Assembly (NCBI GenBank): GCA_007644065.1
Contig: VJWN01000010.1
Span: forward strand, 186,001-250,000
DNA from: Margaritispora aquatica
Taxonomy: Eukaryota > Ascomycota > Leotiomycetes > Helotiales > Discinellaceae
Direction: 5' to 3'
DNA: 64,000 bases
The notes below the pieces were generated by a model, which saw only the letters and a program-made list of their open reading frames with translations, was not told the origin of the DNA and searched no databases. Each line of letters starts with the position of its first letter. The stretch's first letter is position 1. Both the position numbers and the translations under genes were made by a program. Positions 12,126 through 64,000 of this stretch are shown in pieces.

Positions 12126-15270
<3,145 letters not shown>

Positions 15271-28698: not shown

Positions 28699-30510
28699 CT
28701 AGAACCTGTACGATCTTTCACGCTTTTCACCTTTCTTCTCCTCGTCGCGCTTCTGCCTCTTTCGACTCTCTTGTGCAATCATGTCACTCAAATCTTCTTC
28801 AAAGCCCCATGGTCCCTTTTCTTGCTGCTTCTGCTGCTCAAACCTGCGCTTGACCTCTTCCTTGCTAATGCCATCTTCCGACAGCAAAGAGTCGGGATCC
28901 AGAGCAACATCAACATCTCCAGGCTTCTTTCTCTTTCTTGTGTCGTCTTCCTGTCCAAGAATAGGTAGATTCGTTGGGTTCTGTGCGCCGCGGACATCGT
29001 AGGCTCGGTCACCTCCAAAGAATCCCTCAGCTCGGATTTGTCGCTCAGGGATGACAGTATATGCTGATCTGGGGTGAGTCGACTCTTCGGTTTCGGTTCC
29101 TCGTTTTTGTTTTCGAAGATCAAAGTCTCCGCCAACACTCATGTCACCTGGATATTCGGAAGGGACTGTAGATGCCATTCCTCCTGGTGTTTCTAGCCCA
29201 CTAGGTGTTTGTAGACCAGCACCAATATCCTCTTCATCGCCCTCATCTTCCTCCTCCTCATCACTCTCTTCTTCCTCGGACTCTTCTTCTGGTGCTTGCA
29301 ATTCACCCCATAGTGATCGCTCGACTGGCTCCCCAGCTTGAGTGTTGACTTGAGGTTGTAGGACACCAAAGATATCACCTCCATAAAGTGGCCTGTTGAA
29401 TTCATCAACGGGAGGTTTTCCATAGCCACCAGGATGAAAGCCCCACGCACCACCTGGAGGTGGAGGCGCATTCAAGCCAGGGATCTTGAGCGAAGGATAT
29501 GAAGGAGGTGGGCCAAATCTCTGTTGATTGATCAGCCATGGAGGTGGTGCTCCTGGGGGAATATTCAGAGCCTCTTTCAAATCATCACTCAGCTCGCCAG
29601 GACGCAGGTGTCGTAGGTTTGTCTCGTACTCCTTTCCCTCGTAGTAAACCTCACCATAGCGCGTTAGTTCTGGCTTTGTCTGAAACCTGAAGAAGGCTTC
29701 ATACAGCTTTTGATAATCAATATCCAATTTGCCCATCTTTGGCTGAACTCTCTCCCTCTGCTTTTGTTTCAAGCTTGCAGACTCTTGTTTCTCTAAAACC
29801 GCATCTCGCATCTCCGCAATGCCTGTATCCTGAATAAACTTTGGTAGAGAAAACGGAGCTTTCTCAACACCTCGCTTGGATGACAAGTATTCCCTCTTGA
29901 GTGACCAATGTGTTGGTACAGGTACGACGTTTCGGTAAGATTTGATGTGAACAAGTAGACGCGGGTCTGAAGCTGATGTGTCGGTCCATTCAACCAGCTC
30001 TGGCTTGTTAACCAAAGCCTTCAATTCCGCAACGGACAACTTATCGCGCTCCTTCCGCTTCTTCTTGGAGAGCTTTGGTTCTTTGTCTGCTTCTTCATCC
30101 TCGTCTGGAATAAGATCATCGTCGTTATACAACACTTCGCCCTTGTCCCCAGAAACTGCCTCAGTTCCAGCCTCATCCTCATCTTTGCTGGCTCCGAATC
30201 GCTCCATGATTCCCTTGAACATCTCGAAATTTGGATCATCTTCACTGATTCCTGCAACGTCAATTCCAAAGTCTGATGGTTCTTCTTCCTGCTCCTTTAC
30301 TACCACAGGCGCGGTGGTAGGTACTTTGACAGCTTCCGGCTCATGCTCTGGTTCAGGAGTTGGAGTGACCTGTTTGAATGTGAGTACATACGTTTGCAAA
30401 CACTCTCTAACTCTACTAACCTGCGCTTGCGCCTTCTTCTGCTCCTTCTTTTTCGCCCGTCTCATCTGGTTCTTCGACATCTTTGGAGCCATTGTCACAG
30501 CTGAGGGCAT
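28699..30510 (-). CDS. CUS1: Splicing factor 3B subunit 2 (SAP145/Cus1)
   Basis: U2 snRNP SF3b subunit that clamps the branch-site region and contacts SF3B4. Exons 30510-30421 and 30369-28699 give 586 aa. The N-terminus is basic (SKNQMRRAKKKEQKK), followed by acidic linkers. The DUF382 core is evident: WTDTSASDPRLLVHIKSYRN, VPVPTHWSLKREYL and KFIQDTGI. The PSP domain follows: LRPGELSDDLKEAL, IPPGAPPPWLINQQRFGPPP and YPSLKIPGLN. An acidic tail and a basic end complete it. The 51-nt intron is a multiple of three without a stop, so an unspliced form would stay in frame. Start set at MPSAVTMAPK; in-frame coding extends upstream to 30651, so an earlier start is possible. Head to head with the transporter gene. 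Confidence 0.95.
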   Translation of the reverse strand: MPSAVTMAPKMSKNQMRRAKKKEQKKAQAQVSRVRECLQTYVLTFKQVTPTPEPEHEPEAVKVPTTAPVVVKEQEEEPSDFGIDVAGISEDDPNFEMFKGIMERFGASKDEDEAGTEAVSGDKGEVLYNDDDLIPDEDEEADKEPKLSKKKRKERDKLSVAELKALVNKPELVEWTDTSASDPRLLVHIKSYRNVVPVPTHWSLKREYLSSKRGVEKAPFSLPKFIQDTGIAEMRDAVLEKQESASLKQKQRERVQPKMGKLDIDYQKLYEAFFRFQTKPELTRYGEVYYEGKEYETNLRHLRPGELSDDLKEALNIPPGAPPPWLINQQRFGPPPSYPSLKIPGLNAPPPPGGAWGFHPGGYGKPPVDEFNRPLYGGDIFGVLQPQVNTQAGEPVERSLWGELQAPEEESEEEESDEEEEDEGDEEDIGAGLQTPSGLETPGGMASTVPSEYPGDMSVGGDFDLRKQKRGTETEESTHPRSAYTVIPERQIRAEGFFGGDRAYDVRGAQNPTNLPILGQEDDTRKRKKPGDVDVALDPDSLLSEDGISKEEVKRRFEQQKQQEKGPWGFEEDLSDMIAQESRKRQKRDEEKKGEKRERSYRF

Positions 30511-30832
30511 GGTGCCCTGGTTGTTTCTACTATTCCGCAGGATTTTAGAGTATGTGCTGTAACTATGTTTACAAGAAGTTATAAGTGCTGCAGTCGGATG
30601 CAATCGATTATAGAATTCGCGGCGCGTTGGTGGATTGAATTTTGATGGCAAGCATCACCAAAGTTTCAAGGTCGCGCTTTTAGGCTGCGGAACTTCCCGC
30701 CATTTTTCCAGATGACAGACTCACAGTCTGGGGACTGAACTCGTATCGACATCAGAACCAAAAAAAAACCGCCCACCACAACATCACACTTTCTACGGTC
30801 ACTTCAATACCTACTGATTCAAGCTTTTCGAA
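30511..30832. promoter_or_regulatory. Head-to-head promoter region, SF3B2 / SLY41-like
   Basis: 322 nt lie between divergent start codons. An A8 run at 30760-30768 could be nucleosome-excluding. No specific factor site is assigned. Confidence 0.45.
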
Positions 30833-54493: not shown

Positions 54494-55362
54494 CTAGCAG
54501 CATTTGCCACCCTTGGCTGCTCCATCCTCCACAGGCTTGCTCAAGGAGATGCTGGTACCGGCTCCGAGGTTGGTTTGTTGTGAATCGCCATTGTCAAGGG
54601 CTTTCTGAGACACAATTCGGTAGATTTCTATTGCATATCAGCATTATGTTCACGATATTGATTCAGATGACATACCTGTGAGGATGTTCTGGAAGGCTAA
54701 TTCAACATTGCTGGCGTCAAGGGCTGAAGTCTCGATGAAAGAAAGGTTGTTCTCGCCTGTAACGCAATGTTAGTATGTTGTAATATCCAGACGGCGCTGG
54801 TACCGTACTTGCGAACTGCTTGGCCTCCTCTGTTGGCACCGCCCTTAGATGTCTCAAATCACTCTTGTTTCCCACCAACATGATGACAATGTTGGAATCC
54901 GCATGATCTCTCAACTCCTTCAACCATCTTGTCACATTCTCGTAGGTCTGGTGTTTGCTAATATCATATACGAGCAGGGCACCAACAGCACCTCTGTAGT
55001 AGGCAGACGTAATGGCTCGATATCTCTCTTGCCCAGCGGTATCCCAGATCTGCGCCTTGATCGTCTTTGCGTCTACCTGGATGGATCGAGTTGCGAACTC
55101 AACACCAATCGTGGACTTCGAATCGAGGTTGAACTCATTGCGGGTGAATCGACTCAACAGATTGGATTTACCAACACCAGAGTCTCCGATCAGGACGACT
55201 ATTGAAAAAGGTGTCAGTATGCAGGGGCGGTATAGGAGAGCAGGCGACCAGCGGTGGGGTCTTTCTCACCCTTGAACAGGAACTATTGGGAAACAAGAGT
55301 TAGCAGATGGAAAGAGGAAGAGATGCGATTCTTTTGCTTACATCGTACTCGTCGTTTGCCAT
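54494..55362 (-). CDS. YPT31: Rab11/Ypt31-type small GTPase
   Basis: Controls exit from the trans-Golgi and recycling endosomes. Five exons: 55362-55342, 55282-55270 (13-nt microexon, FLFK), 55198-54809, 54756-54676 and 54627-54494, giving 212 aa. All four introns are 48-71 nt with canonical ends. G motifs are intact: GDSGVGKS (16-23), switch I STIGVEF, WDTAGQE (63-69), GNKSDL and [34 protein letters not shown] is the Rab11 subfamily fingerprint, and the hypervariable tail ends KGGKCC for double geranylgeranylation. Gln68 is present, so GTP hydrolysis should be normal. The two tiny 5' exons contain the start and the beginning of beta strand 1. Confidence 0.96.
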
Positions 55363-56209: not shown

Positions 56210-59200
56210 ATGGCCAACAATACCACGTCGACTCGAGAAGACGACGAGATCTCTTTGACATCAACAGAAAGCGAGCAATACAGTTCAGATCAAGAATTTG
56301 AGGTCAATAGGATCTTGGCAGAGAAGGTTATTCGGGGCAAGAAGTCATATCTGCTCTTGTGGGAGAACTACCCTGAGGAGAAGTCAACTTGGGAACCAGG
56401 TCAAAATATCAATGACGAAATTCTTGATGCTTGGGAGGTTCGGAAATCATTTGAAAATGAAAATCCTTCCCATGTCTTTGATGTCCCTAAATTTGAGGCT
56501 AAGCTGCAGCGATTGGCAGAGGAGAAAGCTAAGCGTCGTTCACGTCGACGAGCTGAGAGGAAGAGACGTGGTATACCAGTCTCTCCATCTGCCTCCGATG
56601 CAGATGAAGCAGACGATAGTGACTCTAGCACTGAGGCTATAGAGCGAGATGTAATAGAGGATGCACCAGCTACAAAAGCTAGCCTAAAGCGGATAAATAC
56701 CTCATCAGAAAAGGCGACCGAAACTCTAGGACTTGTCACTGGTGAAGACGGAAGAAATACAGGACAGGTTGTCGAAAGTCCTCAGAGTGCTAGTTCAGCC
56801 AAACCTAAATTGCGAGATGTGCCTGATATGGCACGATTGCAGAAACAGTCATTTAAAACTATATCAGCTGGTTCAAAAGTACCGGGAAAGGGTGTTACTA
56901 GTCCTGAGGTAAGGCTTGAATTTCTGTTTTCATCATACGTACTTCAATAATTTAAGTTAACTTAACTAAGTGTTCACAGGAATTCCCGAGAAGACTTTCA
57001 AGCTCCTCTTCAGACGTGCCACTCACAAGAGAAAAGACAGTGGCAAAGACTAGCTCCTTGTCGTCTAATGAGCCCTCCAATTTGCGGCGTCCACAAAGGA
57101 AAAACACCGTCGAATCAACCACAACAGCTACTCGAGCAAAGCCCATCTCAACAAAATCGACCCCAACTTCCACATTGCAGGGAGGACCTTCTGTAAGAGG
57201 TGCTCCCTCGACCCGAGGAGGCAGAGGCGCGACCCGAGGAGCGTCTACGATTCACAAGAACGTATTCGCTTTAAGCTCTGCTTCAAAGATCAAGCGTGGC
57301 AACCTCTTAACCAATGCAGCGGATACCACCAAAAAGCCTAAACAATTTAGCAACAAACGACTGGAGTGGAAAGCCCAAGTTCAAGCACGAGAGAAAGCAG
57401 ACGCAGCGCCTGATCTCAGTAAGTCTTCCTATTTAGTATTGTTATCTACCACCGAAGCAAGTCAAAGTTGCTTGGTATTTTTTAGCAACAGGTATCTGTT
57501 GGCTAGCTCTTGTTCATATTGGCAACATATGCTAATTGTGTGATAAGGCGCTGTTGGTGGCCTCTTCAATCCGTCGACTTCAGCCAAAGTAGATATAAGA
57601 CCTACTAGTCTCAGGAAAGCCTCCACAAATATTGGTTCTCCTTCAGATGATGGATTATTCATCAGAGATGATGATAAGGAATATGATCGTACTGTTAACG
57701 CCCCGTTTCCACGTGCAGCTCCGGCACCTCAGTATCAACAGGTAAGCTACCCCACCAATTATGCTCAGACGAGCACAACCGCAGCGATATCAACCTGGCG
57801 CCCGAAAGTTTTCTTTCCTTCTAATGTGACCTAGTCTTCATTTGTAAAGTTGATTTGTTACTACTGGGCGAGAGAACAGCGAGATTCAAATGCCCCATCA
57901 TGTCAATTGGGAACTGCGTGTAGTTTTATGCATTCATTTAAAGATGGTGCATCAATAGCACCAGCGCCAATTGGAGATGCGAGTCAAGAATCTATCTGCT
58001 TCTTTTGGCATAGGAACTACAAGGACGAGTCTCAACCGGGTTGTACCAAGGGTGACCTTTGTTCCTACTTGCACGAACTACGCCCAGGTGCTCCTGTTGC
58101 CCAACCACCCGCGGGTTTTGTCGAACGATTTAATCAGATTCGCAGAGACAGTGGAGATGATACAGTACCATTGACACAACCCCCAGTGTCACATGAAGGA
58201 AGTCGTCCATACGAAACGCGTATATCAACGTGTTATTATTGGGATCGATATTCTAGGGGAGAATCCGCACAGACATGTAATAAGTCAGCGGAAGAATGTT
58301 CATATTTTCATGAATATAAATTAGGAGCCCCAATTGCTGTTCCACCTGGTCAGCTTGGTCATTCAGTCTCACGTTTTAGAGACCCCAAGGAAAACGCCAA
58401 TTCAATCCCCTTAGGAGTTCCTCGGGGTTCTGATCGTGATCTGCAGCAAAGCGACCAGCCAGCTCAATATGGAGAAAGTTATTCGACTGAGCAAACTTCA
58501 GGCCAAGTACTACAAGGGTCTTCGGTAAAAGACATTTTGGTTCCACAACCTCAAGACGTCACTCGTCCACCATGGGATCCTAAATTTCCGTTCAATGCAA
58601 TTTGCTACATGTGGTATCACAGTAGCTGCAAATGGAATGCCGATGTCTGCAAGTACAACCATAGTAAGGATAAGCGATTGCCAATAGGACTACGGCCTGA
58701 CCTAGACACAAACCTGTCGCAACCATCTGAGGTAACTTTTCCCTCATCTAGCGAGCATACAGTCCGTACCAGTTCGTGGCAAGATTCAAGTATGAGTACT
58801 GGACAAGGCCGTCCGGCGTGGGATCCAAGCAGACCGTATGATGCAATTTGTCATTTTTACTACAATAGAAATGGAAAATGTGACAGGGGAAATTCTTGCA
58901 AATACATCCACACCTTTAGGGACGATGTACCGCTTGCTCCAGCGCCAGGTACCCAGGCTCAGACGTGTAGAGATTGGCTGGCCGCTAGGTATTGTAGATA
59001 CAAAGATACCACCTGCAAATTTGCGCATCCGCCACTGCCATCGCTGCAAGCACCGCAACCAGTACAATCGTTCCAGCCAATGAAATCATTACAGCCCATA
59101 CTGCCAATACAGTCAATACAGCCAGCACAGGTAAAACAACCAACAAAATCGAAGCCGTCGCTTTCTGACGCATTGGCAACTTTATCTCAAATTCAAGCTT

Positions 59201-61908
59201 CAGCTGAGCCAAAAGTGAAATCGGTCAAGTTCGCAGACGAGCAGTATCCAAGGGGGGAAGGACGATTAGTACCTGCACCCGTGGCTCAGGCAGAAGATCT
59301 CGATATGATGGAGGTTGATAGTCATGAGAATCAAAATCAATCTGAGCCATCTGAACAAAGATTGAACTTCGTTGCTCACGGTGCAAAACGCCATATAGAT
59401 GCAATGGGACTATCTACTGCGCCGCTTTTAGAGGAGCCAGGACAAGCCAAGCGTAACAAGATGAACATAGAAGATTATAAGCGTAGAAAGTTAGCAGAGA
59501 CGCTTGGTGTGAGAGGAAAGCAGGTCATTTTTGGGAGCCTCGAAACCAAATCACTGATGCTCGACTTTAGTGGTATCGAGGCAGGAAAACCATCTGGGTG
59601 GAGAGAATCATGGGAGAAGACTCAGAAGCTTACTTTTACTCAGATCTGCATGGCACAGGACTTCAAGTCGCAACAAGGTTTTTTCAATCGACGTAGATTA
59701 GAAGAAACACCCGGAAGCTTGATCGCTGGAGATGCAAACGACACAACAACAATCAAGGCGTTGAGCTCTGCAGCAGAAGAGCTTGGCATCAGATCAGCTG
59801 GCTTGATAGCAACAATCGATAATGCTGCTTACCAGATCGGCATATTGATATATCCGGCCAGGAAGGAGGAGTGGAGTTTCTTAGAGAGGATGTCTGACGT
59901 CCCTAGAGATGTCTGCTTGCGGTATTTCATTTTTCAATGTGACACAGAGACATCAAAGTTGCTCAACGATGACAGTTCTGCTCTCTCTATTGCTAAGCCT
60001 TATCGAATGTCTATGGTCGAGAGATTATGTGGCCTTCAACTAGGAACCTTACTGCCAGCACGGTATAAAGTTCATGATGCATACCACTTCTTTCTTCTAT
60101 TCCCTGACACAGCAAGAGAGAGCGAGGACTTTATTACGGCATGGATCAAGTCTATCAATCCTAAAAACAAGGTCCATACCAGTCGCAATCACGGCGAATG
60201 GAATCTCTTCGCCGGTCCCACCGTGAAACTTGGAGTTGCTCTCGTTCACGAATCAGCTGCAATTAATTTGGTACAAATGCCGTTGCTATATCGTGTGGTA
60301 AACGACTCCGGAAAAACTGTTTCTTTTTGGTGCATTTCTGACTCAAATACTCCGTACTCGTTGTATCCATCACGAGGCTCAACGAGAAGCTTGGAGAGTG
60401 GCAAGATTGTTACCACAAGGCTCTTTCCACGTGGGTGCGCATTCTTTGTTACTCCAAGCTTTCTCGTGGCCGAACCCCAGAAAGCATTCGATCTACTATC
60501 ATGGTTCTTAGTAGGATCGAACGGAAGGCCGGCTAAATATCTACACACCACTCCGAGATCTTGGAAGCTGGTGTGCTGCTATAAGCTTTCTGACTACCTT
60601 CTCGATGTTGCGCTTGGCAAAGCCAAGGAAAAGGAAGAATTTGAGGCTGCAAATCAGGACAAGCCTACAAAAGACCGGATGCTGAAGGAACGAGGTCTGA
60701 GTTACGATCACTGTGAGCTTAGATTCAAGCTTCATGCAATACTTGTAAAGCTTGACAATCAAGGTCTTTTGGAAGTAGCCTCTGAAGACGGATTCGAGTC
60801 TGACACAAGCGACGAGGTTGAGCGACCTTTTGTGTACGCTGACAACTTTATCGATCCTGACGATGAGGTGGCTCTGGTGAAGTGGTACGCTGGCTGGGCG
60901 GTTCGAAAACTTGACATGTTCAAGAAATTCCTCGTCGTCGGCACTGATGCAAAAAGTGCCTTACGAGCCACACGAGTGATAGAAGTACCTGTCAAGCTAC
61001 CAGTCACAAAAAGTGTGTTTAATTTCAGCATGTTGAAGAACACCAAGGAGAGTTCAAATATGTCTCAGGGGGAGAAGGCTCGCTTAGGAAGTAATCAGCA
61101 TGATACTGTTCAACCTGCGATGATATCTCAAGCACCACGGCCGCACTTAAACAATGACACTCCCATGGAAAACGGCATCGAGGACCACCAGATTCTAGCC
61201 AAAGAAATCGTCACTTTCATCCAGAAGACAGGGGCCAGCATCGACGATGCCAAGAAATTTCTCGAGCGCGCACGAAACGACGTCATCCACGCAGTGCACT
61301 TATACAATCTTGACATGGAAGTCGACGATATGATATCTCGCGAAAGCATGCCTCAAGAATCGAGCGTTCCTAGACCTGCCACTAACAACCTGCCCAAGCA
61401 TGATAGTGTGGATGAGTGGGAGAGGCCACCTTCTGTGGGTTCGAATGAGAAGATGAGAGAGAGCAATCAACGCTTTGTACCCCGCACTGTACGTCCTGCT
61501 GATAGCAGTGTCCACAACTCAACCTCTGTTCAGCCTGAACACGCATCCACGGATGATAATACACAATACCAGCATTCTAAGTCAAGACCAGACTTGGCTT
61601 CAAACAGTCAGCGTGGGAGTTTTGCCATGGACGTTGATAACTCAAGTGCAAGAGACCCGAAAGGAAAGGGGAGATGGGAGGAGAAAACTAGTGAAGTTGA
61701 GGCAGATGTCCAGGCAGAGACACAGCTGAAAACGGAATTAGCAATGGAGACGAAGGTGATTACCTACCCAGCCACGACGGAGTGGGTTCAGAAGCTCGCG
61801 AAGGAGAGGGGCTATGCTTGGGAGCATCTCTTCATTGGGTCGTATGAGAAGGTGTTTGTTCAGCTTGGAATTACGAAGGCGCCTCCGAACGAGGGGAGTG
61901 GGAGGTAA
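56210..61908 (+). CDS. Chromodomain protein with six CCCH zinc fingers and a UBA-like domain
   Basis: Four exons (56210-56908, 56980-57418, 57548-57741, 57835-61908) give 1,801 aa; all junctions restore frame. The chromodomain is at 29-80 with aromatic cage Phe30, Trp51, Tyr54 (LLLWENYPEEKSTWEP), so it should read methyl-lysine on histone tails. A basic, RG-containing linker follows. Six CCCH fingers lie at about 452-477, 499-524, 577-603, 701-720, 783-803 and 822-842. The first three have C-x14-C spacing; the last three are of common type. Residues ~620-1480 include a large folded region with ILIYPARKEEW, LFPRGCAFFVTPSFL and AFDLLSWFLVG. A UBA-like three-helix module is near 1560-1605 (TGASIDDAKKFLERA). 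Likely nuclear and RNA- or chromatin-associated; a Chp1-like silencing role is only a hypothesis. AGGTAAGT at the stop codon resembles a donor, so an extra 3' exon is possible. Confidence 0.85.
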
Positions 61909-62665: not shown

Positions 62666-64000
62666 CTAGGAAGCGTATAGATAATTTGCCTTCTTTGGCC
62701 CGTCGAAACTTTCCACGCCTGCTTTTAGTCTGCTGAAACGCTCCACATCCACCTTCTTCCCCTTCGGATCACCCTCGCCATCAGTGACAGACACTCTATC
62801 TTGCAGTGTCTTGTATATCATAGGTTGGAGATACAGCGTTACCGCGACTTTGCCGCCTTTCTTCACCGCTAGGGACATGAAGGAGTGGCAGCCTGCTTCG
62901 AGAGTGTGGTTCCTGTGTGGGCTGTGAATGGAATTAGACATTGGTAAGGCATAGTCACGTACTACGAACAGTGGTTTGATCTCGTGCGGTAGAGGAAGCT
63001 AGACAGTTTTCGAGTGCCATCTTGTGACTTAAATTAAGAGTCGAGTAGTAAAAAGGAGAAAAGGAAGAGGTTAGAAAGGAAAAAAATAAGGCAAGACTCA
63101 CAAAATCTCGCCAAAATCCTCCCCATAACTCCCACATACTTCGCCAAAACCCCTCTTTCCAAACCACCCTTGCAACGCAACCGCGATCTCTTGGTCACTT
63201 TTACTACCAAACCTTGCAGGCTGGAGATACAGTTTCGGCGTCGGCAGTTTCGCGCCTGGCTTGATCTCTAATCCAAGACAAATCGACTGCGGTTTGCCAA
63301 GTCTACTGAGCAGTTCCTTGCTTTCGCGCTCATCTCTTGCAACTTCAGATTCTGTCTCACTTGCTGAGACTGATGCTGGTGAGAAGAGCAAATCGTATAA
63401 TTCCTCGATGCAACGCAGCCCGATATCGATTTCCTCCCCCGTCAGCTGACCCCGCTGCGTCCACATCTCTTTCAGGGCGCGAAGACTGGTGTGCGAATGA
63501 TACGTGTAGACTTTCACTCTCGTCTGCGCGACATCTACACAGTCCCAGCCTAGCATGTGCACTTTCTGCATTTGCTCTTCTTCTAGATCAGCATTGTACT
63601 TCTCAATCACGGAGTACGCCTCTCGCAGTCCACCATTGAAGAGGTCGTTGTCCCACGTGGAAATGATTGCGTTTGCTCGCTCGTGGGAGAGTGCACGTGC
63701 GCCTCCTGTGGCGGGACGGAGGTAGATCTTGTAGAGCAGCTGGCCGGAGCGCAGCATGTCGATGCCGGAGGCGAACCAGGGCGCGTGTGCATCTTCTGAA
63801 GAAAGGGTGATGGATGATAAAGTGGCGAGAGCGGAGTCTAGGGGGTCTGTTTTGGAGTCTGCTAGTGTCAGGTAGCTGAGTCTGGCGAGAGAAAGGATGA
63901 AGGCTTTTGGTTGGGAGCCCGTGTCGAAGGACACGCGGATGATGGAGTCGGATGCTGAGGTTGGGGATTCAACCAGATTCCATTGCATGTCGTACGGAGT
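62666..64000 (-). CDS. DMATS-type aromatic prenyltransferase, 5' end cut by the window
   Basis: ABBA-fold prenyltransferase that transfers a dimethylallyl (or longer) group to an indole or other aromatic substrate in secondary metabolism. Visible exons 64000-63102 and 62921-62666 give the last 384 aa. The 180-nt intron joins GEDFGEI to FPHRNHTLEAG. The diphosphate-shielding Lys/Tyr strands are present: YKIYLRP, RVKVYTYHS, PKLYLQPARFG and VAVTLYLQPMIY. The frame stays open through ATG 63988 to the edge (TPYDMQW), so that ATG is internal and about 60-80 N-terminal residues, including the usual catalytic Glu, lie outside. Family length is 400-460 aa. Related biosynthetic genes may follow beyond the right edge. 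The substrate cannot be read from this. Confidence 0.88.

Follow-up and report, generated by a model that had tools for sequence, protein, structure and literature searches.

What does a fungal protein do that appears to join a chromatin reader, an array of zinc fingers and a large folded region in one chain? The question is raised by a gene in a 64,000-nucleotide stretch of the Margaritispora aquatica genome (positions 186,001 to 250,000 of contig VJWN01000010.1; below, the window). Its four-exon spliced open frame at 56210-61908 (+) codes for 1,801 amino acids (aa): a chromodomain comes first, then six CCCH fingers and a large folded region, with a UBA-like unit and finally a conserved element toward the C-terminus. 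We propose, with a probability of roughly 0.7, that the gene is the Leotiomycete form of a Chp1-type heterochromatin scaffold, a proposal that leans on a predicted fold. New here is the putative zinc-finger variant of this scaffold, and the most original point is a PYM-type motif found in its relatives.

Predicted fold of the core region

A reading of the letters alone (the sequence-only reading) had compared the protein with Schizosaccharomyces pombe Chp1 in logic, had left the large region unassigned and had suggested structure prediction for it. Of the PDB entries, our structure model matches 3tix best, the S. pombe Chp1-Tas3 core (Foldseek E 3e-13), and in the predicted fold the region has the architecture of that core, a SPOC barrel followed by domain II/PIN, taking the likeness to Chp1 past logic to anatomy. 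With a second model of the same stretch, built with 11 sequences and worse (mean predicted local distance difference test score 54.7, lowest in the SPOC part), 3tix again ranks first by VIA-align.

59500..59952 (+): SPOC-like beta barrel by predicted fold, approximately aa 1000-1150 (model residues 12-162)
59998..60996 (+): domain II/PIN-like half of the Chp1 core by predicted fold, approximately aa 1166-1498

Within the PIN half, the columns of E1250, D1368 and E1455 are acidic in 35/35 rows. A relation to Ku was rejected, the Ku rows in the structure comparisons being read as the SPOC-like barrel that Ku presumably has, and fatty-acid-binding protein rows in the PDB search (E 0.32-1.3) were dismissed as chance.

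Several observations weigh against kinship with Chp1. Aligned identity to the Chp1 core is 11-16%, and superposition of the whole core is loose (root-mean-square deviation 15, TM 0.18/0.30), as expected if the domains are placed differently, although that proves nothing. The sequence searches of the PDB with one protein or a profile (E <= 1; E <= 10) returned no Chp1 core chain, and there was none among the 60 of 148 PDB chains listed for the family profile, where a weak match remains possible. With the poorer model, Foldseek had no hit reaching E <= 0.001, and its 50 listed rows do not include 3tix. Finally, the protein has 2 GW/WG pairs against 2.8 expected by composition, which gives no hint that it carries an Argonaute hook itself; such a hook was rejected on this count. 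The proposed kinship lies in the predicted fold, and we therefore refrain from calling the protein an ortholog of Chp1.

Chromodomain and CCCH array in the N-terminal half

The chromodomain scores 42.8 bits against PF00385 (cut-off 25.1), and F30, W51 and Y54, singled out by the sequence-only reading, align with what we take to be the aromatic-cage positions of HP1. Among solved structures, CBX5 and CBX1 are closest to it in sequence, and the family profile reaches the S. pombe Chp1 chromodomain 2rsn at E 8.7e-11. The six fingers counted earlier from the letters were recovered by motif scan, with a PF00642 score of 27.9 bits (cut-off 20.5); the first gap is long, 14 residues, in fingers 1-3.

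56297..56437 (+): chromodomain, aa 30-76, with F30/W51/Y54 at cage positions; best PDB match CBX5/HP1 alpha 8uxq, E 2e-8
57856..57933 (+): CCCH finger 1, C-x14-C-x5-C-x3-H, aa 452-477
57997..58074 (+): CCCH finger 2, C-x14-C-x5-C-x3-H, aa 499-524
58231..58311 (+): CCCH finger 3, C-x14-C-x6-C-x3-H, aa 577-603
58603..58662 (+): CCCH finger 4, C-x7-C-x6-C-x3-H, aa 701-720
58849..58911 (+): CCCH finger 5, C-x9-C-x5-C-x3-H, aa 783-803; best PF00642 stretch
58966..59028 (+): CCCH finger 6, C-x8-C-x6-C-x3-H, aa 822-842

Among the 60 of 148 matched PDB chains listed for the family profile, the finger array finds Yth1/CPSF30 best and RBM22 lower, and because of this resemblance it is likely to bind RNA. 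Neither exon 1 nor exon 4, the two exons scanned with Pfam, shows an RRM, and none is among the families matched by 29 family rows.

Gene model and family

56210-56908, 56980-57418, 57548-57741 and 57835-61908 (+): exons of the whole gene; open spliced frame with the linker conserved across intron 2

The same four exons as proposed earlier give one open frame, and all three introns start with GTAAG. Intron 2 ends in an AAG acceptor (57546-57547), which brings back the stretch SAVGGLFNPS; its counterpart in the relative P0010 (P numbers denote family rows) is SALGGLFDPS, and relatives conserve S-A-[LV]-G-G-L-F-[DN]-P-S across this junction. The choice of this acceptor in the sequence-only reading is supported because it restores the conserved linker, and models with C/T-AG acceptors only (1,789/1,786 aa) were dropped.

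A search with the core, its scoring confined to the 7,989 candidates with the most words in common, matched 34 proteins at 20-52% identity, an alignment that is, at the sequence level, more than chance. They include members from Phialocephala, Hyaloscypha, Mollisia, Diplocarpon, Drepanopeziza, Oculimacula, Rhexocercosporidium, Stipitochalara and Xylogone. A precomputed chromodomain is present in 15/34, and 12 of these 15 also hold at least two CCCH motifs (2 to 11), the other three (P0032-P0034) holding none; several of the remaining 19 look N-terminally truncated. Chromodomain and CCCH parts are thus not always separate genes, an arrangement that, by the terms of the sequence-only reading, would have refuted its proposal. 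That two adjacent genes have been read as one is highly improbable: the chromodomain does sit in a separate first exon, but 12 relatives hold both parts in one predicted protein, and the GTAAG donors and the linker kept across intron 2 also speak against it. The description of the factor as undescribed was half right, members being already named 'chromo domain-containing protein 1' in several sources.

A search from P0033, whose nearest named matches are Gnomoniopsis and Discula, gave 167 proteins, the best 120 including Diaporthe, Cryphonectria, Neurospora, Podospora, Colletotrichum, Trichoderma and Pyricularia. We label the two groups Leotiomycete-type and Sordariomycete-type after their named members, those of the second group being Sordariomycetes; many rows are without names. 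Members of the second group (e.g., P0102 from Thermothelomyces and P0119 from Neurospora tetraspora) share the chromodomain, core and C-terminal element with the window protein but, unlike the Leotiomycete type, have a conserved stretch of their own ahead of that element. This stretch of approximately 200 residues (P-W-[IL]-x-x-[WY]-R-P ... W-[LF]-G-G), seen in P0032-P0034, P0063, P0098, P0105 and P0129, lies between the core and the C-terminal element and occupies the place of the UBA-like and PYM-type parts of the Leotiomycete type; scans of P0032-P0034 gave no Pfam family over cut-off there. In the 119 rows P0032-P0150 neither the CCCH nor the PYM pattern occurs (0/119 each). For P0151-P0222, the PYM motif search covered all rows and the CCCH scan P0184 and P0193.

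The core sequences of 45 rows (501 columns) went into a quick maximum-likelihood tree, with support by the Shimodaira-Hasegawa-like approximate likelihood ratio test (SH-aLRT) only. In this tree, rooted by choice on 11 Sordariomycete-type rows, the remaining 34 group together (SH-aLRT 98). Their first branch is P0184 plus P0193, which have the PYM-type motif and UBA-like domains and no CCCH motif. The window protein falls in a four-row clade with P0001, P0002 and P0003 (SH-aLRT 100). P0193 contains the conserved linker that elsewhere precedes the fingers, which tentatively places the origin of the motif before that of the finger array; tentatively, because both P0184 and P0193, in which Pfam finds no chromodomain, seem N-terminally incomplete.

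UBA-like unit, C-terminal element and a PYM-type motif

The UBA-like triplet of the earlier reading was recovered as three predicted helices. PF14555 stays below its cut-off of 21.8 bits in the window protein (14.3 bits) and exceeds it in P0006 (24.7), P0193 (46.5) and P0184 (50.0); the latter two have two UBA_4 stretches (46.5 and 50 bits). The C-terminal element is confidently modelled, with T770, W773, G782 and H787 (numbering of the modelled piece) invariant in 11/11 aligned rows, and the last aligned model residues, 801 and 803, lie in it and face Chp1 954/956.

61189..61344 (+): UBA-like helical triplet, approximately aa 1563-1614
61459..61575 (+): PYM-type Mago-binding motif, apparently as a decayed remnant, aa 1653-1691; collinear with the motif that relatives keep intact, but with no significant score itself (E 2.4)
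61738..61875 (+): C-terminal strand-helix-strand element (T-x-x-W ... W-E-H-[IL]), aa 1746-1791

The PYM-type motif, which the sequence-only reading had missed, is the peptide by which PYM grips the core of the exon-junction complex (Mago-Y14). The corresponding family PF09282 is precomputed in 11/34 core-search matches, reaches E <= 0.05 in 15 of the 29 scanned rows (best 2.9e-9) and scores 33.6 bits in P0006 (cut-off 20.6), where the motif reads GKRFVPRSVRADKSVRKEIPVRPGFIPTEDVERY; PYM of the same genome as the window (L009, 59 bits) reads GERHIPSSVRADGSKRKEIKIRPGYKPPEDVEVYKNR. With the first 60 residues of this PYM as query, 22/222 family rows score E < 1e-3 (best 2e-12). Every one is Leotiomycete-type, and none of the 444 decoys, shuffled or reversed, does better than 0.41. 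Leotiomycete-type rows number 33 (P0001-P0031, P0184 and P0193), of which four are fragments ending with the core and 29 are assessable. Among these 29, the motif is clear (E <= 5e-6) in 20, weak in three (P0001, 7e-5; P0028, 1.6e-4, the sum of two weak stretches at 0.048 and 1.8; P0024, 0.0021) and not found by the PYM search in six (P0002, P0003, P0012, P0025, P0027 and P0030), so that in the clade of the window protein it is weak or not found. In the window protein itself, the Pfam scans gave no PF09282 match, and a search of the genome for this family at E <= 10 pointed to two other places. Against the PDB, the P0008 motif finds Drosophila PYM in its structure with Mago-Y14 (1rk8_C) first, at E 0.0044, the next row being at 0.37.

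Judged by sequence, the relatives carry a real PYM-type peptide and the window protein what looks like its decayed remnant; nothing else of PYM was seen in these relatives, and the genome has a separate PYM. We infer that the motif of the relatives binds Mago. Yarrowia Pym without this motif is described as no longer binding Mago-Y14 (PMC6351623). We found no open-licence paper joining a chromodomain with Mago binding, or the Chp1 SPOC domain with Ascomycota, which does not show absence from print.

Genome context

In the genome searched (42.4 Mb, 49 contigs), the core and C-terminus of the window gene have a single match. There are four Piwi places, RNA-dependent RNA polymerase (RdRP) at three loci, one each of Pre-SET, Stc1 and chromo shadow domains, and Mago and PYM. 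The genome thus contains some components of RNA interference, of H3K9 methylation and of the exon-junction complex, which such a scaffold could join.

Chromodomain matches with in-frame stops lie at C13:222400, C12:875920, C20:161253 and C18:99972, three of the four having several TAG or TAG/TAA. They may be decayed chromodomain-bearing retroelements altered by mutation like that of repeat-induced point mutation (RIP); C18:99972, directly ahead of the chromo shadow match, could alternatively belong to an HP1 gene with introns. Within the window, neighbouring open frames are as follows.

12126-13277 (-): TIP49/RuvB-like helicase
28699-30648 (-): DUF382 plus PSP, which we take to be the make-up of the spliceosomal SF3b145/Cus1 family
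54717-55265 (-): Ras-family small GTPase
63098-63985 (-): tryptophan dimethylallyltransferase-type prenyltransferase (PF11991, 120 bits), just downstream of the gene; possibly the edge of a secondary-metabolite locus

Proposed role and alternatives

S. pombe Chp1 has an RRM between chromodomain and core and is about half as long as the window protein. Both have an N-terminal chromodomain; toward the C-terminus both, by predicted fold, carry SPOC ahead of domain II/PIN, and the conserved C-terminal element falls inside the aligned stretch. The window protein differs in its six CCCH fingers mid-protein in place of the RRM, in the added UBA-like unit and PYM-type remnant, and in a core from which sequence searches do not reach that of Chp1. 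We do not take the RRM as defining, TASOR being described without one. TASOR, of the human silencing hub (HUSH), likewise has SPOC and DomII/PIN but adds the pseudo-PARP DUF3715 and leaves the chromodomain to a separate partner, MPP8, according to PMC7532188; in the window protein, the chromodomain reader and finger array are built in.

The most likely role is that of a scaffold joining H3K9-methylated chromatin to nascent RNA, similar to the RNA-induced transcriptional silencing (RITS) complex or to HUSH. The chromodomain, to judge by fold and cage residues, would dock on H3K9-methylated nucleosomes, while the CCCH array would hold nascent or chromatin-bound RNA. The modelled SPOC and domain II/PIN core would serve as platform for silencing partners, as in Chp1 with Tas3-Argonaute or TASOR in HUSH, and the outcome would be RNA surveillance tied to the locus, reinforcing H3K9 methylation at repeats. 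Elsewhere in the family, the PYM-type motif near the C-terminus probably recruits Mago-Y14 as well, a contact that would have been lost in the window lineage. According to PMC7532188, RITS works by way of nascent repetitive transcripts and HUSH at targets that are transcribed; the link between RNA recognition and H3K9 methylation in HUSH is left open there.

Such a scaffold might work in a HUSH-like rather than RITS-like manner, its fingers reading nascent transcripts directly, without siRNAs or Argonaute. HUSH is not known to need an siRNA guide, and a built-in RNA-binding array, the lack of an Argonaute hook and the SPOC and DomII/PIN common to TASOR and Chp1 would suit this working; moreover, the literature found on Chp1-Tas3 in filamentous fungi describes RITS in S. 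pombe only, as far as its available passages go. However, genes for Argonaute, RdRP and Stc1 are present in the genome, and DUF3715, which Chp1 lacks, was found neither in exons 1 and 4 of the window gene nor among the Pfam families of the 29 scanned rows. In S. pombe, Stc1 connects Ago1 with the H3K9 methyltransferase complex, as stated in PMC12863538. On balance, we regard HUSH-like working as possible but doubtful.

The two recognition modules could also serve other ends. Resemblance of the fingers to Yth1/CPSF30 and, less, RBM22 among the matches listed, together with a motif in relatives that points to messenger ribonucleoproteins, would fit poly(A)-site or splicing factors that the chromodomain merely positions on chromatin. 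The core, however, is predicted to fold like that of a silencing scaffold, and the CCCH pattern is missing from all 119 rows of the second group scanned, making a function in mRNA processing improbable. We give slightly less credence still to a chromodomain of Polycomb type that reads H3K27me3 and places the protein at facultative heterochromatin. This mark exists in filamentous fungi, and the weaker sequence matches include chains of CBX7, CBX2, CBX8 and Polycomb, but the top matches (CBX5, CBX1 and, by family profile, the Chp1 chromodomain) are H3K9 readers.

Implications

A bolder extension, which we hold only tentatively and consider rather unlikely, is that Leotiomycete Chp1-type scaffolds are wired to splicing: the motif would grip Mago-Y14, and a reader of H3K9 methylation and RNA would sense or strip exon-junction complexes on nascent transcripts. 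If true, these fungi would have a built-in means to distinguish host genes that are spliced from mobile elements that lack introns, as HUSH does in mammals, and the window lineage, its motif lost, would be a natural loss-of-function comparison. In Drosophila, exon-junction proteins sit on nascent transcripts of intronless genes, according to PMC5158136. The PYM-type motif makes a link between the exon-junction complex and heterochromatin directly testable. More broadly, if a Chp1-type core is shared across filamentous fungi, these would have a counterpart of RITS/HUSH-like silencing in a single protein, and the swapping of the RNA-binding part on one core (zinc fingers, none, or RRM) would reveal which part of the scaffold is negotiable.

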